Shown here piece after piece: positions 12,409 through 24,063 of a stretch of 48,470 nucleotides of DNA. Position 1 is the stretch's first letter, and every line of letters begins with the position of its first letter. The position numbers were made by a program, and so were the translations under genes. The notes beneath the pieces were generated by a model. It did not search any database. It saw only the letters and a program-made list of their open reading frames with translations, and was not told where the DNA came from. This stretch comes from Anaerolineae bacterium. GTDB lineage: Bacteria; Chloroflexota; Anaerolineae; Aggregatilineales; J027. The DNA is taken from assembly GCA_019913005.1 (NCBI GenBank), contig JAIOHL010000197.1, forward strand, positions 1-48,470. The letters are read 5' to 3'.

Positions 12409-13125
12409 GTGAGGTTAGATAAATTGCCCCCGAAAAATGAACTTGCCTCGCGGCGGATTCTCTCAGTCACAGAGGAAGAATTAAGCCGCATCGTCTTAGA
12501 TATTCATGATGGGCCAGTCCAGAATTTGTTCGCGGCCCTCTCGCTCATTACCCGCCTACAAAACGAGATTTCCCATCTGTCCTTTGAGCAATTACAATCA
12601 GCAGGAGTTGGCGAACTTATCCCAATTGTGGGGCAAGTGGAGAAATTGATTGAAAACTCGCTGCACGAAATAAAATTCTTTTTGGGGACTTTTCGTCCAC
12701 CCGAATTCCACCGCCGAACACTGGCTTCGATTGCCGAGGGGTTGGTGTATCAGCATGAGGAATGGACAGGTTGCACCGTCGAGTTGAATATATTGCCCCT
12801 CCCAGAAAACATTTCCCTGCCCAGCAAAATCGCACTGTATCGGATTTTTCAGGAAGCACTTTCGAACGGATTTCGCCATGCCGGGGTAGACCGCCAGTGG
12901 GTAAAATTATGGAGTGAGGGCAACATGATTTGTTTGGAGGTGATAGATGAGGGCAAAGGTTTTGACCCACCACCACTTGAAGGCCCAACCGCCACCGAAC
13001 AGGAAGCCCATATCGGCCTGCGCGGGATGCGTGACCGCGTGGCCCTGCTTGACGGCACATTTCAATTGACCAGCAGCCCCGGTAAAGGGACTCAAATTTT
13101 AGTGAAGATACCCGCCTATGTCTGA
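12409..13125 (+). CDS. Soluble NarL-group sensor histidine kinase
   Basis: GTG start with GGAG upstream; 238 residues. The HisKA_3-type dimerisation motif is DIHDGPVQNLF with phospho-acceptor His33. The HATPase_c domain follows: N box around FQEALSNGFRHAG, G1 in DEGKGFDPP, then HIGLRGMRDRVALLDG and SSPGKGTQILVKIP. There is no transmembrane segment, PAS or GAF domain; only about 20 residues precede the kinase core. The signal must therefore come from a partner or be cytoplasmic. The 3' end overlaps the response-regulator gene by 8 bases. Confidence 0.88.
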   Translation: MRLDKLPPKNELASRRILSVTEEELSRIVLDIHDGPVQNLFAALSLITRLQNEISHLSFEQLQSAGVGELIPIVGQVEKLIENSLHEIKFFLGTFRPPEFHRRTLASIAEGLVYQHEEWTGCTVELNILPLPENISLPSKIALYRIFQEALSNGFRHAGVDRQWVKLWSEGNMICLEVIDEGKGFDPPPLEGPTATEQEAHIGLRGMRDRVALLDGTFQLTSSPGKGTQILVKIPAYV

Positions 13126-13756
13126 AAAAATTCGTCTCATGCTTGCCGATGACCATGCGCTGGTATTGCAGGGATTAACCACTCTGCTTGAACAAATCCC
13201 GGATATGGAAGTCGTGGCGACGGCCCATAATGGCGACGAGCTATTGAACCTCTTAGGCCAGCAACAAGTTGATGTAGTGGTCATGGATTTACAGATGCCC
13301 TATCACGGGCTGACGGCGCTGGCGGAAATCCGCAAACGTGGCATGGCGGTGCATGTGCTGGTACTGACCGCTTTTGGGGATGGGGATAGCATCCGGTCAG
13401 CGCTTGAATTGGAGGCGGAGGGGTTCGCCCTTAAAACAGAATCCCCGACACAGACAGTCGAGGCGATTCGACAGGTGGCACAGGGGCGGTTAGTCTTTCC
13501 GCGTGCTGCCCAACGCTGGTTGGCAGTACAGCAGAAGCCTCAGATTCAAGCCGAAAGCCTGCTGTCGCCGCGTGAATCGGATGTCTTGAAACAAGTAGCA
13601 CGTGGGCTGACCAATCCAGAAATTGCGGGTCAGTTGAATGTCAGCGAAAATACCGTGCGTTTTCACCTGAAAAATATTTTTGAGAAATTGAGAGTCACCA
13701 ATCGCACTGAGGCCGCCGCGTGGTTTTTTCAACAGGGTGGCTCAGTCGAATTGTAA
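13118..13756 (+). CDS. LuxR/NarL-type response regulator
   Basis: 212 residues. The receiver domain (about 1-125) has the acidic pair D11/D12, phospho-acceptor D57 (VVVMDLQMP), T84 and K106. The C-terminal HTH (about 148-205) reads SPRESDVLKQVARGLTNPEIAGQLNVSENTVRFHLKNIF, a full LuxR-type DNA-binding domain. It is translationally coupled to the kinase gene by an 8-base overlap, so the two form a two-component pair. An ECF sigma gene starts 12 bases downstream; the regulator may control it, which is inference. Confidence 0.92.
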   Translation: MSEKIRLMLADDHALVLQGLTTLLEQIPDMEVVATAHNGDELLNLLGQQQVDVVVMDLQMPYHGLTALAEIRKRGMAVHVLVLTAFGDGDSIRSALELEAEGFALKTESPTQTVEAIRQVAQGRLVFPRAAQRWLAVQQKPQIQAESLLSPRESDVLKQVARGLTNPEIAGQLNVSENTVRFHLKNIFEKLRVTNRTEAAAWFFQQGGSVEL

Positions 13757-13768
13757 TGGGGGAAATCC

Positions 13769-14404
13769 ATGTTAACGATTGAGGACGCGGACATCATTCA
13801 AGGACTTCGACGTGGTGATGAGAGTGTCTTTGCATCCCTGTTTGATGGCTATCAAAACTCACTGCTCCGCTTGGCATTGATGTATGCCGCCGACCAGCGC
13901 CTTGCCGAAGAAATTGTCCAAGAGACATGGCTGGCGGTCTTAAAAGGCATACATCGCTTTGAGGGTCGTTCGGCACTCAAAACATGGATATACAGCATCC
14001 TCATCAATCGAGCCAAAACCGTCGCACAACATGAAGGCCGCTATAATAACTTGACACTATCGCTGGATGAGCAACCGGAATCAAACGAGCCGTCCGTACC
14101 AGTAGATCGGTTTCACCCAGACGACGATCACCCCTATCCGCATCATTGGTTGAACGGCCCATCAGACTGGGGTGACCTCCCCGAAGACAAATTACTATCG
14201 GATGAGACCCAAAAGGTGATTTTAGCCGCGATTGATGGTCTGTCCCCAAACCAGCGCGAAGTGATTACCCTGCGTGATATTGAAATGCTGTCGTCGGAAG
14301 AAGCCTGTAACATCTTAGGGATTAGTGAGTCTAATCAGCGGGTTTTGCTACATCGAGCACGGGCCAAAGTACGGCAGGCATTGGAAGGATATTTGGAGCG
14401 ATAA
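13769..14404 (+). CDS. ECF-type RNA polymerase sigma factor
   Basis: 211 residues. Region 2 (about 10-85) includes DQRLAEEIVQETWLAVLKGIHRFEGRSALKTWIYSI-type residues. Region 4 (about 150-205) reads LSPNQREVITLRDIEMLSSEEACNILGIS with a following HRARAKVRQAL helix. The linker is longer than usual and rich in His, Pro and Asp (about residues 108-135). The gene starts 12 bases after the response regulator and ends 9 bases before a small zinc-finger protein that is probably its anti-sigma factor. Confidence 0.88.
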   Translation: MLTIEDADIIQGLRRGDESVFASLFDGYQNSLLRLALMYAADQRLAEEIVQETWLAVLKGIHRFEGRSALKTWIYSILINRAKTVAQHEGRYNNLTLSLDEQPESNEPSVPVDRFHPDDDHPYPHHWLNGPSDWGDLPEDKLLSDETQKVILAAIDGLSPNQREVITLRDIEMLSSEEACNILGISESNQRVLLHRARAKVRQALEGYLER

Positions 14405-14413
14405 GGCGCAACT

Positions 14414-14695
14414 ATGGACGAACACGATTTAACCTGCCAAGAATTGGTAGAACTGGTTACGGATTATTTGGAAGGGGCATTGCCTGAAACGCAGTTCAAG
14501 CGTTTTGAGGAACACCTCTCCGGTTGTCATGATTGTCATCATTATTTCGACCAGATGCGGTTTACCATCCGTCTGGTGGGTCGGCTTTCCGAATCACACT
14601 TGAGTTCCGGGGCCAAAGATGAACTTCTCGACTTGTTCCGCGATTGGAAAAAAGAACTGCCCGAACAGGAAAAACCAGAAAACTTAGAAGAATAG
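14414..14695 (+). CDS. Putative zinc-finger (zf-HC2) anti-sigma factor, soluble
   Basis: 93 residues. The anti-sigma zinc-finger pattern HxxxCxxC is present (H34, C38, C41) within EEHLSGCHDC, after a typical start (TCQELVELVTDYLEGAL). No membrane segment follows, so it would act in the cytoplasm, as redox- or metal-sensing ZAS proteins do. Its position immediately after the sigma gene supports a sigma/anti-sigma pair. No terminator is seen before the lysine-operon promoter 23 bases downstream. Confidence 0.8.
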   Translation: MDEHDLTCQELVELVTDYLEGALPETQFKRFEEHLSGCHDCHHYFDQMRFTIRLVGRLSESHLSSGAKDELLDLFRDWKKELPEQEKPENLEE

Positions 14696-14717
14696 TTGGT
14701 TATTTCATCCAAATGTA

Positions 14718-14746
14718 TTGACAGAAAAATTGGACTGCGTTATCTT
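14718..14746 (+). promoter_or_regulatory. Promoter of the lysine operon leader
   Basis: TTGACA (14718-14723), exactly 17 bases, then TATCTT (14741-14746). The first leader ORF starts about 33 bases after the expected transcription start. Confidence 0.75.
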
Positions 14747-14785
14747 TTTGCCCACTTACAAAGTATCAACGAGCAATTAATCAAC

Positions 14786-14839
14786 ATGACCATTTCATCT
14801 GTGACTTTGAAAAAAGGCAAAAAACCGAATCACACCTAA
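14786..14839 (+). CDS. Leader peptide 1 of the lysine operon (17 residues, four Lys codons)
   Basis: A short ORF reading MTISSVTLKKGKKPNHT then TAA. Four of its 17 codons are lysine, all AAA, clustered at 14810-14824. It lies directly between a consensus promoter and a terminator, upstream of a complete lysine operon, which is the classical arrangement of an attenuator leader peptide. The ribosome site is weak (CGAG at a distance). Leader-peptide attenuation has been reported for the lysine cluster of Thermus thermophilus, which uses the same LysW pathway. The reading here rests on sequence only, but a second similar ORF downstream makes chance unlikely. Confidence 0.7.
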   Translation: MTISSVTLKKGKKPNHT

Positions 14840-14901
14840 CGGGTGGTTTTTGTGTTTTGCCAACAAGGGCACAGCCAAAAAGCAGATACTGAATGCCACC
14901 C
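14831..14901 (+). promoter_or_regulatory. Attenuator 1 pairing regions (1:2 and 2:3)
   Basis: Region 1 CACC (14833-14836, inside the last leader codons) can pair with GGTG (14842-14845). Region 2 GGGTGG (14841-14846) is a perfect complement of region 3 CCACCC (14896-14901), the 5' arm of the following terminator. A ribosome stalled at the Lys codons would cover region 1 and free region 2 to pair with 3, preventing termination. A ribosome at the stop codon (14837-14839) would cover region 2, so that 3 pairs with 4. Confidence 0.65.
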
Positions 14902-14917
14902 AACGCGGTGGTTTTTT
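14896..14917 (+). terminator. Attenuator 1 terminator (3:4)
   Basis: CCACC (14896-14900), a 6-base loop, GGTGG (14907-14911) and TTTTTT (14912-14917). It lies between the two leader ORFs. Confidence 0.75.
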
Positions 14918-14951
14918 GTTTTTAGGGGTCATAGGTAACAGGGAAATTAGC

Positions 14952-15032
14952 ATGATTTTTATAGACAGCATCAGCAAAAAAGCGAAAAAACCGAACACCC
15001 GCTGGCGGCGATTAGCCCGACAGTGCGCTTGA
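14952..15032 (+). CDS. Leader peptide 2 of the lysine operon (26 residues, four Lys codons)
   Basis: A second short ORF, ATG 14952 with AGGGA about 8 bases upstream, ending TGA at 15030-15032. It contains SKKAKKPNT, which mirrors KKGKKPNHT of the first leader, with all four lysines again AAA (14976-14990). After these it continues for 16 codons, Arg-rich, to the stop. It is followed 28 bases later by the strong terminator that directly precedes lysW. The matching KK(G/A)KKPN core suggests the two leaders arose by duplication or by common constraint. The frame is open further upstream, but no better start is seen. Confidence 0.65.
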   Translation: MIFIDSISKKAKKPNTRWRRLARQCA

Positions 15033-15060
15033 TGCTGGATTGAGTGAAATCAACCACCGC

Positions 15061-15098
15061 GCCCTCTCTGGAATATCGCCAGAGGGGGCGTTTTTGTT
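15061..15098 (+). terminator. Attenuator 2 terminator before lysW
   Basis: GCCCTCTCTGG (15061-15071) and CCAGAGGGGGC (15079-15089) pair with one mismatch around a 7-base loop, followed by GTTTTTG. It sits 38 bases upstream of lysW, in the same transcript direction, so it must be read through for expression. Possible competitors: GTGCGC at 15023-15028 with GCGCCC at 15059-15064, or CTGGCG at 15002-15007 with CGCCAG at 15077-15082. Confidence 0.8.
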
Positions 15099-15135
15099 TC
15101 ATAGCCAAGTGTTCAATCAATAGGAGCGTTTCAAA

Positions 15136-15312
15136 ATGAGCAATAACAATGTCGAATGTCTGGAATGTGGTGCAGATGTACGAGTGCCCGGCAATGTGAT
15201 GCAGGGTGAAATTTTGAAGTGTGGGGACTGTGGCATTGAGCTAGAAGTCACTGAACTGAACCCCCTGACCATTGACCTCGCGCCGATGGAAATGGAGGAC
15301 TGGGGCGAATGA
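15136..15312 (+). CDS. lysW: LysW, amino-group carrier protein for lysine biosynthesis
   Basis: 58 residues, the usual LysW length. LysW carries alpha-aminoadipate on the gamma-carboxyl of its C-terminal Glu so that the side chain can be converted to lysine while protected. The zinc-binding pairs CLEC (C8, C11) and CGDC (C29, C32) are present and the protein ends in the signature EDWGE. AGGAG lies 9 bases upstream of the ATG. The stop overlaps the lysX start (ATGA). It is the first structural gene after the two leader peptides. Confidence 0.95.
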
Positions 15313-16172
15313 GCGCCAGAATCGGAATTTTGTGCAGCCGCGTCCGCATCGAAGAAAAGCTGTTGTTCGCGGCCTTTGAAGAATTGGGCATCAATCCTGT
15401 GCGGTTGGACGAACGTGAGATGATTGCACGGATCGGCGAATTTGCCCCGGAAGTGGATGTGGTGTTGGAACGCAGCATCAGCACCTCGGCGGGATTGGTC
15501 GCGGCCCAATTGTTGGAAGCGGCCCATATCCCCGTCATCAATAGCCATGCCACCGCCAGTACCTGCGCCGATAAGATTCGCACCACGATTGCGCTGGCTC
15601 AACAGGGCGTACCGCAGCCGATTACCGAAGTCGCCATGAGTGCCGAATCCGCCCTTGCCGCGATTGAGCAGATGGGCTATCCGGTTGTCCTCAAGCCCCC
15701 GATTGGCTCATGGGGGCGTTTGTTGGCACGGGTCAATGATCGGGACGCCGCCGAAGCCATCCTTGAACATAAAGAAACGCTCGGCGGGGTCAGTCACCAG
15801 ATTTATTACATTCAGGAATATATCGAAAAGCCCGCCCGTGACATCCGCGCTTTTGTCATCGGCACTGAAACCATCTGCGCAATCTACCGCAACTCACTCC
15901 ACTGGATAACCAACACGGCACGCGGCGGCAAGGCCAGCAACTGCCCCATCACCGATGATATTGCCGAAATTTGCCAAAACGCGGCGTTGGCAGTCAGCGG
16001 CGGTCAAGGGGGCATCTTGGCGATTGACTTGCTGGAAGACCCCGAACGCGGTTTGCTGGTCTGCGAAGTCAATCACACGATGGAATTCCGCAACAGCATT
16101 GATACAACGGGAGTCAATATCCCGCTACGTATGGCCCAGTTTGTGCTGAACGGCGTCGAGGTGGTGCGATGA
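15309..16172 (+). CDS. lysX: LysX, LysW-alpha-aminoadipate ligase
   Basis: 287 residues, an ATP-grasp enzyme (RimK-like) that attaches alpha-aminoadipate to the C-terminal Glu of LysW using ATP. The ATP-grasp core includes [32 protein letters not shown] and [12 protein letters not shown] with the metal-binding Glu and Asn. The segment WITNTARGG fits LysX, which recognises aminoadipate, rather than ArgX. The start overlaps lysW and the stop overlaps lysY, both by four bases. Confidence 0.93.
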
Positions 16173-17215
16173 GCCGGTTGCAAGTTGGCATCGTTGGGGC
16201 ATCGGGCTATACCGGCGGGGAGTTATTACGGTTGCTCAGTCAGCACCCGCAGGTAGAGGTTATGCAGGTGACGGCGGGACGGAATGTGGGCAAGTTTGTC
16301 CACAACGTCCATCCCCATTTGCGGGGTCAGTTGAATCTGCAATTTATCGCGGATGAGGGTCTGCAACCCTGTGATATATTGTTTCTCGCACTGCCACATG
16401 GACAAGCCCAACAGTCTATCGAACACTACGCCACCCTCGCCCCGCGTATCATTGATCTCAGTGCCGATTTCCGCCTCCGCAACCCCACCGATTACGCCAC
16501 CACCTATGCCCATGACCATCATGCACCGACATGGTTAGACCGTTTTGTGTACGGTCTACCGGAAATTAACCGCCAAGCCTTAATCGGCACGAATTACGCC
16601 AGCGGGGTCGGCTGCAACGCGACGGCGACCACATTGGCGCTGTGGGCATTAGTCAAGGCTGGAATTTTGAATGCCGACCAACCGATTTTTGCCGATATTA
16701 AGGTGGGCAGCAGTGAAGCAGGCAGCACACCGACCCCCGCCAGCCATCACCCCGCCCGCAGTGGCATCGTGCGCCCCTTCCAACTCACCGGACATCGGCA
16801 TGAGGCTGAAGTGCGGCAGGCCCTACATGAGTGTGGGGATTTTGATGTACGGATGGCGGTGACGAGTGTCGAAATGGTGCGCGGGGTGGCAGTGGCGGCG
16901 CATATCACCCTCCCTACCGGACTACGTGAACGGGATTTGTGGCAGGCGTATCGCGGCGCATGGAAGGGGGAGTCGTTTGTCCGTATCGTGCATGAACAAG
17001 ACGGCCTGCATCGTCACCCGGAACCACGTCTATTGGCAGGGACGAATTATGCCGATATTGGTTGGGAATATGACCCTACTACCGGACGGACGGTGTTGCT
17101 GGCGGCAATTGACAATCTGGGTAAGGGCGCGGCGGGAAGCGCTGTGCAATGTATGAATTTGATGTGTGGATTCGACGAAACAACCGCATTGACCTTTGGG
17201 GGAATTTATCCATGA
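16169..17215 (+). CDS. lysY: LysY, LysW-aminoadipyl-6-phosphate reductase
   Basis: 348 residues, an ArgC homologue. It reduces the acyl phosphate on LysW-aminoadipate to the semialdehyde using NADPH. The N-terminal Rossmann motif is [18 protein letters not shown], and the catalytic cysteine is Cys149 in [31 protein letters not shown] and the C-terminal [12 protein letters not shown] match the ArgC/LysY family. It could act on the Glu-derived arginine intermediate as well, as bifunctional LysY do, but no ArgX is in the window. ATGA overlaps on both sides. Confidence 0.93.
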
Positions 17216-18030
17216 CATACGTATTGAAGATCGGGGGCGGCGCAGGGGTTGACCAACACGCCGTCATCCGCAATTTAGCCGAACGCATTCAAGCTGGCGA
17301 ACGCTGGGTTTTGGTACATGGCACCAGTGCCGCCGCCAACGAATTAGCCGTCCGTATGGGGGTTGAAGTGCGTACTATCACCAGCCCCGGCGGGCATGTC
17401 AGCCGCTACACAGATGCCCAAATGATCGGCATTTATGGGATGGCAGCCGCCTCGGTGAATCAGCAACTGTGTTCCGAATTATCGGGATATGGCGTGCGGG
17501 TCGCGGGATTAACTGGTCCAACTGCCATCACGGCCCAACGTAAGCAGGCCATCCGCGCTATTCAAAATGGGCGACCTGTCGTCATTCGGGATGATTTTTC
17601 GGGCCGCATTACAGGCATTGACCATGATTTGCTTGAATCGTTATTGGATGCAGGCTACACCCCGGTCATCGCACCTTTGGCGATTGGAGAAGCGGGTGAG
17701 TCGTTAAATGTAGACGGTGATTTAATCGCCGCCACCGCTGCCCGTTCGCTTAATACCGATTTGCTCATGATTTTAAGCAATGTGCCCGGCTTGCTGCGTG
17801 ATGTAAATGACCCGACCTCGGTGATTGAGCATTTCGCCTTACACGAAATCGAGCGTTATGAGAATTTCGCAGCGGGGCGCATGAAGAAGAAGTTATTGGC
17901 GGCGCGGGAAGCAACGGTTGAGCAGGTTATCTTGGCTGATTCTCGCCTAGAAAATCCGATTGACACGGCACTTGCGGGTGCGGGCACACATATTTGGCGG
18001 GAGGGGCAGCATGTTGGACACCACGCTTGA
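17212..18030 (+). CDS. lysZ: LysZ, LysW-aminoadipate kinase
   Basis: 272 residues from the ATG at 17212, which overlaps the lysY stop and follows TTTGGGGGAA. The open frame extends 63 bases into lysY but the conserved start is [13 protein letters not shown]. It is an amino-acid kinase related to ArgB and phosphorylates the aminoadipate side chain on LysW. Visible motifs: KIGGGAGVD (ATP loop), a VHGTSAAANELA substrate region, NVDGDLIAATAARSL and the C-terminal AAGRMKKKLLAA with its conserved lysines. The last 20 bases overlap the start of lysJ. Confidence 0.93.
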   Translation: MTYVLKIGGGAGVDQHAVIRNLAERIQAGERWVLVHGTSAAANELAVRMGVEVRTITSPGGHVSRYTDAQMIGIYGMAAASVNQQLCSELSGYGVRVAGLTGPTAITAQRKQAIRAIQNGRPVVIRDDFSGRITGIDHDLLESLLDAGYTPVIAPLAIGEAGESLNVDGDLIAATAARSLNTDLLMILSNVPGLLRDVNDPTSVIEHFALHEIERYENFAAGRMKKKLLAAREATVEQVILADSRLENPIDTALAGAGTHIWREGQHVGHHA

Positions 18031-19186
18031 TACTCTTGCCCTTGAACAAGCCCACACCAGCGGCGTCTACATGAAGCGCGACCTGCAAATTGTACGCGGT
18101 GAAGGGGCTTATCTTTATGACCCATCAGGTCGGCGTTATATAGATTGCGTTGGGGGGCAGGGGACGGCCAATTTAGGCCATGCCCACCCCACGATTGTCA
18201 CTGCCATTCAACGGCAGGCCGCCGAACTCATTTCATGCCCCGAACTTTTCCACAACCCGATACGGGCGCAGTACCAAGCCGCCTTGTGTGAGGCCGCTGG
18301 CATGAATCGCGTGTTTCTATGCAACAGCGGGGCAGAGTCGGTGGAGGCCGCCATCAAGTTTGCACGGGCCAGCACTGGACGGACGGGCATTATTTCGACC
18401 ATGCGCGGCTTTCATGGGCGCACGTTTGGGGCGCTCAGTGTCACATGGAACAAGTCGTATCGTGAACCCGTTGAACCGCTTGTGCCGGGGATTAATTTTG
18501 TGCCGTTCAATAATATCGAGCGCTTGCAGGCTGCGCTGAATGATTCGGTGGCGGCGGTAATTGTTGAAGTTATGCAGGGCGAAGGCGGCGTCTATCCAGC
18601 CGAACAAGGGTATTTGCAGGCCGTTCAAGAATCATGCCGGGAAAACGGGTCACTATTGATTGTAGACGAGGTGCAAACCGGATTTGGGCGCACCGGAAGC
18701 CTCTTTGCTCATCAGCAGGACGGCATCACACCCGATTTGCTGTGCCTCGCCAAGAGTATCGCAGGGGGCTTGCCAATGGGGGCGGTCTTGATTGGCGAAC
18801 GGGTGAATACACTTGCCCCATCGCTCCACAGCAGCACGTTTGGCGGCAATCCGTTGGCGTGTGCGGCGGCACTGGCGACCCTTGATGTCCTGCAAAACAC
18901 GGATGTGATTGAACAGGCCCGTCAGCGTGGCACTGCCGTGATGGAATATTTACGGAATACTCTCCCCGAAAGCGTGATACGCGAGGTGCGTGGACGAGGG
19001 TTGTTGATTGGGATTGAACTCCGCGATAAAGCCGCACCATTTTTGCGCCGACTACAAGAGGAGGGCGTGTTGGTACTGACCGCTGGCCCAACTGTTTTAC
19101 GACTGCTACCCCCACTTGTGATTAGTGAATCCGATTTATGGGAAGTCATTTCGATTATCGAAAGGGTGTTGACCGATGCCGCTTAA
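18011..19186 (+). CDS. lysJ: LysJ, LysW-aminoadipate semialdehyde aminotransferase
   Basis: 391 residues from the ATG at 18011 (GGGAGGGG ribosome site inside lysZ). An earlier in-frame start at 17960 would sit deeper in lysZ and is not needed. It is a class III PLP aminotransferase, homologous to ArgD, that turns the LysW-bound semialdehyde into LysW-lysine using glutamate. The PLP lysine is K248 in LLCLAKSIAGG. CNSGAESVEAAIK, GFHGRTFGALSVTW and IVDEVQTGFGRTG match the family. Its end overlaps homocitrate synthase by 11 bases. Confidence 0.93.
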   Translation: MLDTTLDTLALEQAHTSGVYMKRDLQIVRGEGAYLYDPSGRRYIDCVGGQGTANLGHAHPTIVTAIQRQAAELISCPELFHNPIRAQYQAALCEAAGMNRVFLCNSGAESVEAAIKFARASTGRTGIISTMRGFHGRTFGALSVTWNKSYREPVEPLVPGINFVPFNNIERLQAALNDSVAAVIVEVMQGEGGVYPAEQGYLQAVQESCRENGSLLIVDEVQTGFGRTGSLFAHQQDGITPDLLCLAKSIAGGLPMGAVLIGERVNTLAPSLHSSTFGGNPLACAAALATLDVLQNTDVIEQARQRGTAVMEYLRNTLPESVIREVRGRGLLIGIELRDKAAPFLRRLQEEGVLVLTAGPTVLRLLPPLVISESDLWEVISIIERVLTDAA

Positions 19187-20312
19187 CCAATTTGCCATTA
19201 TTGAAAGTACCTTACGCGAAGGGGAGCAGTTTAGCACGGCGACTTTTTCCACCGCGCAAAAGCTGGAAATCGCTGGACTGCTGGATGATTTTGGGGTCGA
19301 AATGATCGAAATGACCTCCCCTTGTGCCTCCCCTCAAAGTGAGGCCGATATTCGCGCCGTCAGTAATCTAGGATTAAACGCCCGTATTTTGACCCACATC
19401 CGCTGCAATCGGGATGATGCGATTCGTGCATTGGATACGGGTGTGCATGGACTGGATATTGTGATCGGCACGTCGCCCCAACTCATGCAGCACAGTCATG
19501 GCAAGAACATCAACCAGATTATTGACCTTGCCGCCGATGTGATGTGCTTTATCCGCGAACAAGCCCCAGAGATTATCCTGCGCTTCAGCACCGAGGATAC
19601 CTTCCGCAGTCGAGAAGCCGATTTGCTGCGGGTGTATCTCGCCGTTGCCGATCTCGGCATGGTTAATCGCTTGGGCGTGGCGGATACCGTCGGGGTCGCC
19701 ATGCCACAGCAGGTGTATCAGATGGTCAATCAACTGGTACGGCTGACCGGGTTAGATGTCGAATTTCATGGACATAATGACAGCGGCTGCGCGATTGCCA
19801 ATGCGTGTGCCGCGTTGGAAGGGGGAGCAACCCATATTGATACCACCATTTTGGGCATCGGCGAACGTAATGGCATCACGCCATTGGGCGGCCTCGTGGC
19901 GCGGTTGTACACCCTCAATCGAAATTATGTGACCAAATATAACCTCCGCCTGCTGCCCCAATTGGATCGGCTCATCGCGGATATTTGTGAAATAGGCATC
20001 CCCTTTAACAATTACATCACCGGGGCCAGCGCCTTTATCCACAAGGCCGGGATTCATGCCAAAGCGGTGCTGGCTGATCCCACTACCTATGAAATTTTGT
20101 GCCCTGAAGAATTTGGGCTAAATCGGGAAGTGGCGATTGGGCATCGGCTGACAGGATGGAATGCCATCCGAGAACGGGCGCTGTCTTTAGGGGTTAGTTT
20201 GGAAAACGCGACCCTGCAAGCCATTACCCAAGACATCAAGCGTCGTGCCGATGTACGCCCCCTGACCTTGCCTGAAGTAGATGCGCTCATTAGGGAGGCG
20301 GCAAACGTATGA
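19176..20312 (+). CDS. Homocitrate synthase
   Basis: 378 residues, of the LeuA/HCS family. It condenses acetyl-CoA with 2-oxoglutarate to homocitrate, the first and usually feedback-regulated step of the AAA pathway. The catalytic segment is [15 protein letters not shown]; metal-binding HGHND and the HTHIR-like Arg-rich motif are visible, as is the lid region [15 protein letters not shown]. There is no C-terminal LeuA regulatory domain: the length fits the short archaeal/Thermus type. The order after lysJ and before homoaconitase, with overlaps on both sides, fits one operon. Confidence 0.92.
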
Positions 20313-21565
20313 GTGGCAAGACCTTTGTCGAGAAAGCATTAGCCCGTGCCGCCGGGGTCAGTGAGGCCAGCGCCGGGGACATTTTGGATGTGCGGCCAGA
20401 CATGATTTTCAGCCATGATAATTCGGCTGCCATCCGCCGCATTTTTGAAAAAATCGGGGCGAAAAATATGGCACGGCCCGACCGGATAGCCATTACGCTC
20501 GACCATGCCGTTCCCGCCCCAACCACGCAGCACGCCCAAAACCATGCCGAAATCCGTGAATGGATTAAGCAGCAGAGTATCCAACATTTTTTTGAGGTAG
20601 GGCGCGGCATTTGCCATCAGGTGATTAGCGAAGAAGCGCTGATTCTACCCGGCGAAGTCATCTTAGGAGCAGACAGCCACAGCACCCATTTTGGCTGGTT
20701 AGGGGCATTTGGAGCAGGTGTAGGTCGGACAGAAATGGCAGCATTATGGGCAACAGGTGAACTCTGGCTACGTGTGCCGGAAGCCATGCGCGTAACGCTG
20801 ACGGGCCGCTTGCAACCCGGCGTCACCGCCAAAGACATCAGCTTGCGAATTTTGGGGGATAGGGGTGTCGAAGGTGGCCTCTATCGTTCAGTGGAATTCG
20901 CTGGGGATACCCTCAGCACCCTCTCATTGGATGAACGGCCCGTCCTGCCGAATGTCATGGCCGAATTTGGCGCGAAAAATGCCTATATGCCGCCCGACGA
21001 AGTAGTATTCAATTATTTGGAGGCCCGCCGCACCCGCGATTATACGCCGCTGTATCCTGACCCTGACGCGCATTATGAAGTCGAATATGCGCTGGATGTC
21101 AGCCAACTCGAACCCCAAATCGCGCTTCCTCACCAACCCGATAACGTCGTGCGGTTGTCGGATGCGATTGGTGAACCTGTCCAGCAGGCATTTATCGGCA
21201 CGTGTACCAATGGGCGACTGGAAGATTTGCAGGCGGCAGCGGACGTCTTGCGTGGTCATCAAGTGGCTTGTCGGTTGGTGGTCATTCCCGCCAGTTCGCA
21301 GGTGTTATTAGAAGCGGCCCGTTCCGGCATTATCGAGACTTTGTTGATGGCAGGAGCGACCATTGCCACCCCCGGTTGTGGGCCATGTATGGGCAATCAT
21401 ATGGGTATCCCCGCGCCAAATGAAGCCACCATCAGCAGCGCCAATCGCAATTTTAAGGGTCGCATGGGTACACCCGAAGCACCTGTTTATCTCGCCAGCC
21501 CGTATGTCGTCGCCGCCAGTGCCATTTGTGGAGTCATTGCCGATCCGAGGGAGTTTTTATCATGA
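20309..21565 (+). CDS. lysT: Homoaconitase large subunit
   Basis: 418 residues, LeuC-like. With the small subunit it converts homocitrate to homoisocitrate through cis-homoaconitate, using a [4Fe-4S] cluster. Cluster ligands are seen in GTCTNGR and [34 protein letters not shown] is the family active-site stretch. It could also act as isopropylmalate isomerase, but the operon (homocitrate synthase before, homoisocitrate dehydrogenase after) makes homoaconitase the better call. ATGA overlaps on both sides. Confidence 0.9.
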
Positions 21566-22056
21566 GCATTCACCGCTGTTGGGTTTATGGAGATAACGTC
21601 AATACGGATGTCATTTTCCCCGGCAAATATACGTATACCCTCAAGACGCCGGAAGAAATCGCGGCCCATGCGCTGGAAGACCTTGATACAACCTTTGCCG
21701 CTAATGTACGTCACGGAGATGTGATCGTCGCGGGGCAAAATTGGGGCTGTGGCAGTAGCCGCGAACAAGGTGTCACCGCACCCAAATATGCTGGGGTAGA
21801 TATTATCATCGCCGCTTCGTTCAGTCGCATCTATTTTCGTAACTGCATCAATCAAGGCGTGCTGCCGATTGTCTGCCCCAACCTGAATACACTGGTGCAA
21901 ACCGGAGACACCATTGAAATTGATATAACCAATGGACAAATTCACGCGGCGGGGCAAACTTTTACCTTCCCACGCCTATCCCCCTCTGTGCAAGCCATTT
22001 TGGACGCGGGCGGGTTGGTTCCCATGTTGCAGCGTCGTTTCGCAGGAGAAAACTAA
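21562..22056 (+). CDS. lysU: Homoaconitase small subunit
   Basis: 164 residues from the ATG at 21562, which overlaps the large-subunit stop; the in-frame start at 21526 would add 12 residues not typical of the family. LeuD-like swivelling domain: [16 protein letters not shown] at the start and [22 protein letters not shown] with the substrate loop. The stretch NVNTDVI is the usual region for small subunits. Partner of the upstream large subunit. Confidence 0.9.
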
Positions 22057-22058
22057 AC

Positions 22059-23033
22059 ATGACCCAGATCATTACCTATATCAATGGCGACGGCATCGGT
22101 CAAGAAGTGATTCCTGCCGCCCGTCAGGTGGTCGAAAGTCTGGGCTTACCGCTGGAATTTCGAGAGGCAGAGGCGGGTTTTGGCACATTTGAAAAAACAG
22201 GGAACGCCCTGCCACCTGAAACTTTAGCCTTATGTCAGCAAAGTGATGCGGTGTTGTTTGGGGCAACCAGTTCACCCATGACCAAGACCCCCGGCTATCA
22301 AAGTCCGATTTTGACCCTGCGCCGCCATTTTGATTTATTCGCCAATCTGCGTCCGGCAGTCAGTGAAAATATTGACTTACTGATTGTGCGTGAAAATACC
22401 GAAGGGTTATATAGTCGGCGCGAACGGGTTGAGGATAATGGGCAAACCGCCATTGCCGAACGGGTCATTACCGCCCGTGCCTCGGAGCGCATTATACGGG
22501 TAGCCTGTCAACAAGCCACGCAGCGTCGCCGACAACTGACCATCGTGCATAAAGCCAATGTCCTTTCGGAGACCTGTGGCTTATTTCGGCGGGTGGCGTT
22601 TGAGGTTGTCAAGGAATTCCCCGATTTGACTGTGAATGAATTATTGGTGGATACGGCAGCAATGAAGTTGGTGCAGTCTCCGCAAAATTTTGATGTCATT
22701 GTCACCACCAACCTGTTTGGCGATATTCTGAGCGATTTAGCGGCAGGATTAACGGGTGGGTTAGGCATTGCCCCATCCGCGAATATCGGCGTCGGACGGC
22801 CTGCGGTCTTTGAACCTGTGCATGGCAGCGCCCCCGATATTGCCGGACAGGGCATCGCCGACCCGCGTGCCGCCATCCTCAGCAGCGCTATGATGCTTGA
22901 TTATCTTGGCTACACCAAAATCGCCGAACAGGTACGGCAGATTACTTATCAAACGGCTCATCAAGGGACAACCCAAGCCACGACACAAGCCATCATCCAC
23001 CAATTGCTAGAGGTTGCCGTCCATGCCAAGTGA
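22059..23033 (+). CDS. Homoisocitrate dehydrogenase
   Basis: 324 residues. It oxidises and decarboxylates homoisocitrate to 2-oxoadipate with NAD. It belongs to the isocitrate/isopropylmalate dehydrogenase family: [15 protein letters not shown] start, [12 protein letters not shown] substrate motif, [31 protein letters not shown] with metal-binding Asp residues, and [18 protein letters not shown]. The substrate is assigned by operon position and by the resemblance to HICDH; isopropylmalate dehydrogenase activity cannot be excluded. AGGAGAA precedes the ATG, only 2 bases after the small-subunit stop. Confidence 0.88.
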
Positions 23034-24063
23034 ATTATTAGTGGAATTGGTCAGCCGCTACAGCCCATCTCGTTATGAAACCTCCGCCGTCGAATATTTG
23101 GTGGCATGGATGCAAGCGCATGGGTTTGAAGCGCACATAGATGAGGTCGGCAACGCTTTTGGGCGACGGGGGTCAGCCGATGCACTCCATACCTTAATAC
23201 TGCTAGGGCATATAGACACCGTGCCGGGGGAGATTCCGGTGAGGATAGAAGATGGTCTCCTATACGGGCGTGGCAGTGTGGACGCCAAAGGGTCATTGTG
23301 TGCCTTTGCCGATGCTGCTGCCCTTGCGACGATTCCCGATGGGTGGCAGGTGATCGTCGTGGGCGCAGTCGAGGAGGAAATTGCCACCAGCAAAGGCGCA
23401 CACCATATCCGTGACCAATTTTGCCCAGATTTGTGCATCATCGGCGAACCCAGTGGCGCTGACCGGATTACATTAGGTTATAAGGGGCGGCTGTTGGTGG
23501 ATTTCTCACTGACCCGGCCCCTCGCGCATACCGCACGGCCTGAACCCAGTGTCGGGGCGATTGGGACAGCCTTTTGGAATGATGTTTTAACTTGGTGCTG
23601 GGTACAAAATGAAGGCCGTACCGCCCATTTTGATCAGGTTACGCCACATCTCCGCAGCATCAATACCGAGTCGGATGGCTTTCAGGATACCGTGCGCTTG
23701 ACCGTCGGTTTTCGATTGCCACCCCATCACACCCCGGCCAGCGTATTTGCCGAAATCAGCCGATTCGCCCCACCGGATGCCGCCCTCCACCCTTATAGCA
23801 TGGAACAGGCCTATCAGGGGGATAAAAATAACGTGTTGGTACGGAGGATGCTGGGTGCTATTCGAGGTCAGGGGGCGCGTCCGGCCTTTGTTTTAAAAAC
23901 AGGCACCAGCGATATGAATGTGGTCGGCGCGAAATGGAACTGTCCGATTGTGGCGTATGGGCCGGGGGATAGCAATCTTGACCACACGCCCAATGAACAT
24001 TTGCCCCATGCCGAATATGATAAAGCGGTAGCTGTACTGCGTCATTTGATTGAGCATCTTTAG
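23023..24063 (+). CDS. lysK: LysK, LysW-lysine hydrolase
   Basis: 346 residues from ATG 23023 with AGAGG upstream; a TTG at 23014 is a less likely start. M20-family metallopeptidase that releases lysine from LysW, the last step. Metal ligands: H63 and D65 (GHIDTVPG), D87 (VDAKG), E117/E118 (EEE), and GEPSG. Overlaps the preceding gene by 11 bases. It ends in a four-base convergent overlap with the molybdopterin gene. All steps from 2-oxoglutarate to lysine are in this operon, except the aminotransferase LysN that makes aminoadipate, which is not in the window. Confidence 0.92.

Follow-up and report, generated by a model that had tools for sequence, protein, structure and literature searches.

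Classical attenuators of amino-acid operons, of the trp, his, leu and thr type, combine a short open reading frame (ORF) that has many codons for the end product of the operon with mutually exclusive RNA helices and a terminator in front of the first gene. To our knowledge, this textbook form of RNA control as a rule uses one sensor per operon. The lysine cluster of Thermus thermophilus is reportedly also governed by leader-peptide attenuation, with a single leader.

Pairs of leader elements have been described in other settings. In the Salmonella mgtCBR leader, two short ORFs, each with its own alternative stem-loops, respond additively to different signals, ATP and proline (PMC3641672). Induction of ermB needs two leader peptides, one of which, ermBL2, was found with a frameshifting reporter; this is drug-driven translational attenuation, not termination set by tRNA charging (PMC8274638). 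In Gammaproteobacteria, the rimP leader contains a second tandem terminator, the upper one having a potential antiterminator, and the corresponding portion of the source describes no leader peptide for rimP (PMC2965389).

Here we describe the leader of a lysine operon in a 48,470-nt stretch of DNA from an Anaerolineae bacterium (the window, which is the whole stretch analysed). Judged from its sequence, this region is very probably a single transcript leader that holds two ribosome-mediated transcription attenuators in series, both sensing lysyl-tRNA. The locus resembles the trp, his, leu and thr attenuators in its short ORFs rich in the product's codons, its exclusive helices and the position of its terminators before the first gene. 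It differs from them in that two complete units for the same amino acid would act in series, that unit 2 would target the loop and 3' arm of its terminator instead of the 5' arm, and that an extra helix brackets the Lys codons. With the Thermus thermophilus cluster it has in common lysine synthesis by the LysW/aminoadipate route and, as predicted here, leader-peptide attenuation, and it has two leaders in place of the reported one. Like mgtCBR, it has a pair of leader ORFs on a single leader, each ORF with a predicted attenuator of its own, here behind one promoter-like site on the + strand; unlike the two-signal design, both ORFs contain the same Lys core and the operon makes lysine. Its two leader peptides for one response recall ermB, and its two tandem terminators before a gene recall rimP. 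Among the matches listed from the open-licence literature, none describes a series of two attenuators for one and the same amino acid, or lysine leader peptides in Chloroflexota; nor did that literature yield a paper joining transcription attenuation, leader peptide and Chloroflexi.

Results

Two lysine-rich leader ORFs precede a LysW lysine operon

By NCBIfam assignment, the ten genes at 15136-24063 form a LysW/aminoadipate lysine operon (Table 1). Behind lysW lie lysX, argC/lysY, lysZ ([LysW]-aminoadipate kinase), argD/lysJ, homocitrate synthase, the large and small subunits of homoaconitase, homoisocitrate dehydrogenase and lysK ([LysW]-lysine hydrolase). The transaminase gene scores above the cut-off of the argD model and below that of the LysJ equivalog model, and the homoisocitrate/isopropylmalate-type dehydrogenase (22059-23033) falls under its family's cut-off. 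Elsewhere in the same assembly (L176), contig C101:2333-3532 encodes a diaminopimelate decarboxylase (lysA) above the TIGR01048 cut-off, and lysine may therefore be made by more than the aminoadipate route; the 803 nt upstream of lysA contain no Lys-rich leader by the relaxed rule given below. Ahead of the leader, at 12409-14695, are a response regulator and a histidine kinase, followed by a sigma-70-family factor and a small zinc-finger anti-sigma-like protein, all named by eye from their translations. The anti-sigma-like gene lies immediately upstream of the lysine promoter, and in L049, the most distant genus member, nothing in that position clearly corresponds to its end.

The earlier note on this DNA had described a TTGACA-17-TATCTT promoter, two short ORFs of 17 and 26 codons with four AAA codons apiece, and a terminator after each ORF, with lysW next. 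These elements were found directly in the sequence, the terminators as hairpins with U tracts. The two promoter hexamers (TTGACA at 14718-14723 and TATCTT at 14741-14746, 17 nt apart) are both identical in an alignment with the four other genus members (4/4, L049 included). This site, upstream of ORF1, is the sole promoter-like site on the + strand in 14401-15600. A separate promoter for ORF2 gained no support from the scan, which gave no + strand promoter-like site in 14747-15135. Taken singly, the scans are near chance: two promoter-like sites were observed vs 1.2 (sd 1.1) in shuffles, and three terminator-like sites vs 1.4 (sd 1.3). What stands above chance is the combination of elements and its conservation.

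Table 1. Features of the predicted tandem lysine leader and its operon (window positions)
Feature	Position	Strand	Basis
Sigma-70-type promoter-like site, TTGACA-17-TATCTT	14718..14746	+	Consensus scan; conserved hexamers
Leader ORF1, 17 codons, MTISSVTLKKGKKPNHT and stop	14786..14839	+	Read from sequence; conserved
Segment 2 of attenuator 1 (GGGTGG), antiterminator 5' side	14841..14846	+	Pairs with 14896-14901
Terminator 1 (segments 3 and 4)	14895..14912; U tract to about 14925	+	Scan; conserved pairing
Leader ORF2, 26 codons, MIFIDSISKKAKKPNTRWRRLARQCA and stop	14952..15032	+	Read from sequence; conserved
Segment 1 of attenuator 2 (CAGCATCAG), directly 5' of Lys codons	14966..14974	+	Pairs with 15029-15037
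Segment 2 of attenuator 2 (GGCGATT)	15007..15013	+	Pairs with terminator 2 loop and 3' arm
Segment 1' of attenuator 2 (TTGATGCTG)	15029..15037	+	Partner of segment 1; present in minimum-energy fold of 14952-15098
Terminator 2, 13-bp stem, 7-nt loop	15059..15091; U tract to about 15098	+	Scan
lysW, amino-group carrier protein, first operon gene	15136..15312	+	TIGR01206 above cut-off
Nine further lysine operon genes	15309..24063	+	NCBIfam

The four AAA codons of ORF1 (14810-14815 and 14819-14824) form the core AAA AAA GGC AAA AAA, and those of ORF2 (14976-14981 and 14985-14990) the core AAA AAA GCG AAA AAA. Of the shared motif KK(G/A)KKPN proposed earlier, KKxKK stands and 'PN' does not: ORF2 reads KKAKKTN in the four other genus members, which leaves the KKxKK core as the only shared part. 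When folded, terminator 2 of the window reaches -25.3 kcal/mol and terminator 1, with its A/U arms, -11.8 kcal/mol. Overlapping the stop codon of ORF1 is another small hairpin (14833-14845), the third, which is absent from the earlier note; we read it as a competing 1:2 hairpin, not as an additional terminator.

The tandem leader is conserved in the genus, the order and several class families

The whole leader is common to the window and its four genus relatives (L046-L049). Between L049 and the window, identity is high in the leader parts (51/54 in ORF1, 68/74 from segment 2 to terminator 1, 77/81 in ORF2 and 32/33 in terminator 2) and low in the surroundings, both in the background (31/95 at the end of the upstream gene, 70/131 at 4-fold sites of lysX) and in the spacers (21/39 in the spacer, 22/32 between terminator 1 and ORF2, 16/26 between ORF2 and terminator 2), which marks out two constrained islands. 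The Lys codons are all AAA in the window and in L049, and ORF1 of L047 contains one AAG.

For the order, we took the genomes with LysX relatives at E<=1e-118 (25 of 154, five of the 25 being one genus) and searched upstream of lysW for short Lys-rich ORFs, defined by at least four Lys in 8 residues and a length of 8-45 amino acids (strict rule) or by at least three Lys in 7 (relaxed rule). At least two Lys-rich ORFs were present in 17/25 genomes by the strict rule and in 21/25 by the relaxed one. Among 1389 control windows of 600 nt, drawn from the same loci, overlapping and mostly coding, at least two occurred in none (strict) or six (relaxed), and at least one in three or 87; among 500 dinucleotide shuffles under the strict rule, at least two occurred in none and at least one in 24. 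Two complete units of ORF plus terminator were found in 14/25 order genomes, vs 0/1389 control windows and 0/500 shuffles. Inspection showed that none of the 25 lacks an ORF2-type leader. Four genomes (L072, L078, L081 and L083) have only this second leader, and in L081 and L083 a promoter-like TTGACA was seen by eye just upstream of it.

Beyond the order, we examined a non-random class sample of LysW loci, 24 from the best LysX matches and 51 hand-picked for spread. Sixty stretches were fetched, nine of which were left uncounted, being cut by contig ends (L136, L140, L148-L150) or having no recognisable lysW (L157, L160, L162, L165); L038 was also excluded from the class count as too short. 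By the relaxed rule, the 75 loci contain two Lys ORFs in 23 cases (10 by the strict rule), one in 10 and none in 42. By the relaxed rule, tandem leaders occur in families f2 (6/6), f20 (7/9), f36 (6/8), f38 (2/2), f40 (1/1) and f56 (1/2, a case, L137, that by eye looks like a chance match); f2, with f5, lies within the window's own order. Family f43 has no Lys-rich ORF at any of its 12 loci in this sample. Elsewhere in the phylum, none of 23 LysW loci has two Lys ORFs, and one is present at none (strict) or five (relaxed); L110, with 78 nt of upstream sequence, is excluded from the 23, and at some of these loci another lysW lay within the 600 nt examined. In four Chloroflexota genomes outside the class (G617, G589, G559 and G631), two to three LysW genes adjoin each other. 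Thermus composti, a control genome, gave a LysW match.

The earlier note had looked to relatives for conserved Lys-rich ORFs and terminators; both are conserved, and the lack of conserved Lys codons or ORFs that would have spoken against its proposal was looked for and not seen.

Leaders of other kinds were also observed. In two f15 loci (L131 and L175), a single Arg-rich leader-like ORF (NSRRAR.KRS) and then a terminator-like hairpin lie about 60-200 nt upstream of lysW; before this LysW/LysX-type pair, the leader is possibly an arginine attenuator ahead of an arginine branch of the pathway. Three f16 loci (L041, L116 and L119) have a single conserved leader ORF that ends in IKKAA..PGPDGSPVLT. 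It contains fewer Lys codons than the leaders of the tandem do, and a strong terminator-like hairpin lies between it and lysW.

Candidate antiterminator pairings covary in both units

In attenuator 1, segment 2 is complementary to CCACCC in the 5' arm of terminator 1. In a MAFFT alignment of 17 order genomes, where segment 2 takes the form GRGUGG, 98.0% of the cells of this pairing are paired, and its variable pair is A-U in ten genomes, G-C in six and G-U in one; neither the 500 shuffles nor any slid register produced a covariation score as high. The stem of terminator 1 is paired in 100% of cells, and RNAalifold, given the ORF1 alignment, proposed the terminator alone.

The spacing of attenuator 1 fits the dimensions of a ribosome, whose edge lies ~13 nt downstream, counted from the first base of the codon in the A site. 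Segment 2 starts 14-17 nt past the last Lys codon in 13/16 order genomes and the stop codon is at +12 in 11/16, both together in 10. A ribosome stalled on the Lys codons would thus leave segment 2 free, and one at the stop codon would cover it.

Attenuator 2 is built differently. The partner of its segment 2 (order form GGCGAUU) is 15072-15080, a stretch in the loop and upper 3' arm of terminator 2, and six pairs form in the window before a U-U mismatch. In the 17-genome alignment, 92.2% of cells are paired, a value matched by 7/500 shuffles; the covariation score is matched by 16/500 and the number of cells changed on both sides by 5/500. RNAalifold, given the ORF2 alignment, proposed unprompted four of these segment 2 pairs and nothing else. 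Examples of the pair are GGTGATTGA/TCAATCACC in L061, CCAGCGATT/AATCGCTGG in L056 and GCGGTAAACC/GGTTTACCGC in L051. By these alignments, covariation is weaker in attenuator 2 than in attenuator 1. In the window, 16 nt of ORF2 separate segment 2 from the stop codon; a terminating ribosome would therefore lie past segment 2, not on it.

We also compared pairings across 33 genomes drawn from several families, all selected for having both ORFs recognisable. Left out were the single-leader genomes L059, L060, L072 and L078; L022-L025, L029, L030, L036 and L042, some of them tandem; and the close relatives L046-L048, L064, L065, L125 and L164, with L065 restored in the 17-genome alignments. By looser duplex energies, a genome's own pair ranked first in 3/33 (attenuator 1) and 0/33 (attenuator 2), with median rank fractions of 0.23 and 0.20, foreign GC-rich pairs often being stronger. 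After this loose test, a contiguous-helix measure with permutation of partners was adopted. By this measure, the own helix of attenuator 1 averages -18.56 vs -14.27 for permuted partners (p=5e-5; p=0.0006 within the order only), and that of attenuator 2 -18.86 vs -15.18 (p=5e-5). Within groups, permutation gives attenuator 2 weak support (order p=0.065, f2 p=0.19, f20/f36 p=0.057), its segment 2 being almost invariant there. A control by the looser duplex energies, comparing units 1 and 2 of one genome, went as expected: duplexes within a unit (R1:T1 -28.0, R2:T2 -35.0) are stronger than those across units (R2:T1 -24.3, R1:T2 -26.9), an advantage with p=0.013 and 4e-5 (n=33).

A bracketing helix and predicted folding in three ribosome states

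A further helix joins segment 1, just 5' of the Lys codons, to segment 1', which lies 3' of segment 2, and so brackets the Lys codons. Examples are CAGCATCAG/TTGATGCTG in unit 2 of the window, ACACATTGAAG/CTTCAATGTGT in L062 and GTCAGCGTGT/GCACGCTGAT in unit 1 of L061; in unit 1 of the window the helix is short (CTGTG/CACAG). The search covered the 24 nt that precede the first Lys codon and positions +24 to +60 counted from the last one. Compared with permuted partners, the genomes' own helices gave p=0.0002 (unit 1) and p=0.0022 (unit 2) in 16 order genomes. The best helix starts 34-42 nt past the last Lys codon in 8/16 (unit 1) and 10/16 (unit 2); helices placed elsewhere in the remaining genomes may be unrelated. 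In the window, the bracketing helix of unit 2 belongs to the minimum-energy OFF fold.

Folding at equilibrium only the RNA exposed downstream of a ribosome gave, as means over the 33 genomes, a probability of terminator 1 of 0.66 with the ribosome at the first Lys codon, 0.75 at the last and 0.95 at the stop, and of terminator 2 of 0.82, 0.87 and 0.98, so that the means of both units shift in the expected direction. From the last Lys codon to the stop, terminator 1 rises in 17/33 genomes, is unchanged in 15 and falls in one, and terminator 2 rises in 8/33 and is unchanged in 25. At the last Lys codon, the probability is below 0.5 in six genomes (attenuator 1) and three (attenuator 2). Unit 1 of the window follows the expected course (0.18, 0.78 and 0.96), and terminator 2 of the window stays at 1.00 in all three states, never opening in equilibrium folding. 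With equilibrium folding unchanged in many genomes for both units, switching would often have to be kinetic, as it would at terminator 2 of the window. In such a scheme, segment 2 of unit 2 would pair with the loop before the 3' arm is completed.

Lysine codons and other readings of the leader

Across families, the Lys codons comprise 116 AAG and 17 AAA in 33 ORF1s, and 104 AAG and 19 AAA in 32 ORF2s; AAG predominates outside the genus, and L133 is again mostly AAA. The Lys cores are thus kept while their codons swap between AAA and AAG, which points to constraint at the level of the peptide, that is, of the tRNA. Past the core the alignments tell otherwise: an equivalent of the WRRL stretch (CTGGCGGCGATTA in ORF2 of the window) is present even in relatives that end ORF2 just short of it, as happens in 7 of the 17 aligned genomes (L050, L051, L054, L058, L062, L063 and L065). 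On the aligned sequences, constraint past the Lys core is on the RNA.

These observations bear on the improbable reading that the second leader senses arginine besides lysine. In the genus, the Lys core of ORF2 leads into TRWRRLAR, and several order members have an ORF2 that ends in a similar way, like WRR(L/F/V).R. The LysW pathway of some organisms also branches towards arginine, ORF2 of f20 and f36 often reads KRxKK, and the two f15 leaders examined upstream of lysW are Arg-rich. However, the DNA that encodes WRRL appears to act as an RNA element, which still pairs with terminator 2 in the seven genomes that stop ORF2 before it.

Still less probable is that only ORF2 and terminator 2 form a working attenuator, with ORF1 and terminator 1 the remnant of an older duplication. 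The weak terminator 1 of the window (-11.8 kcal/mol, vs -25.3 kcal/mol for terminator 2) would suit this, as would the four order genomes that retain an ORF2-type leader alone, two of them with TTGACA just upstream by eye. Against it, L049 preserves ORF1, segment 2 and terminator 1 about as well as unit 2, covariation is clearer in the 2:3 and 3:4 helices of unit 1 than in the helix of unit 2, and predicted switching by folding is better for unit 1. A ligand-binding riboswitch or T-box, with incidental Lys ORFs whose A-rich codons are the A tracts of bidirectional terminators, would suit the ability of these codons in the window to pair with downstream U tracts, but it is very improbable, as no Rfam family, lysine riboswitch (L-box) and T-box included, reached its gathering score anywhere in the window, and in most relatives the Lys codons are AAG within less A-rich sequence, so that Lys is kept but no A tract.

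Discussion

Sequence features of a ribosome-mediated attenuator are present at this locus: ORFs rich in the product's codons, a terminator before the first gene, and conserved, mutually exclusive pairing, which is weaker within groups for unit 2. The earlier note's proposal of two complete attenuators in series is supported in that the Lys cores and both terminators are conserved and each unit has a covarying antiterminator pairing, the second weaker; these pairings and the bracketing helix go beyond what the note described. Anatomy, conservation, synonymous preservation of Lys codons and covarying pairings are read from sequence, and from them we infer translation, stalling, termination and a multiplied response.

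In the tandem lysyl-tRNA attenuator that we propose, a ribosome would translate the short ORF with the KKxKK core in each unit. When lysyl-tRNA is scarce, it would stall on the Lys codons and mask segment 1, leaving segment 2, which in the order lies roughly 14-26 nt 3' of the Lys codons, free for the emerging terminator. Free segment 2 would take the 5' arm in attenuator 1; in attenuator 2 its target would be the loop together with the upper part of the 3' arm. RNA polymerase would then read through. When lysyl-tRNA is plentiful, the ribosome would reach the stop codon and cover or pass segment 2, and the terminator would form. In an untranslated leader, segments 1 and 1' would pair and so enclose the Lys codons together with segment 2, again allowing the terminator to form.

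Because both gates precede lysW on one transcript, their read-through probabilities would multiply, and the operon would probably be transcribed only when lysine is short at both. Provided that each read-through rises as lysyl-tRNA falls, two gates would leak less than a single one and respond more steeply; the steeper or two-threshold response suggested in the earlier note may follow from this. With less assurance than we attach to the tandem arrangement itself, we lean towards a broader view: that this is a widely conserved serial (AND-type) lysyl-tRNA sensor, present in several families of the class and using two different antitermination geometries, that its multiplied read-through would be steeper and tighter than that of any single attenuator, and that the single-leader relatives are half-circuits.

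That two attenuators for one amino acid are conserved as a pair suggests that such switches can also evolve in series. It makes a question of design testable, namely whether stacking sharpens the response, lowers the leak or widens the range, and the single-unit relatives (L072, L078, L081 and L083) offer natural single-gate comparisons. For the Chloroflexota, leader-peptide control gains evidence, and the small ORFs named here are of a size that gene finders often miss.
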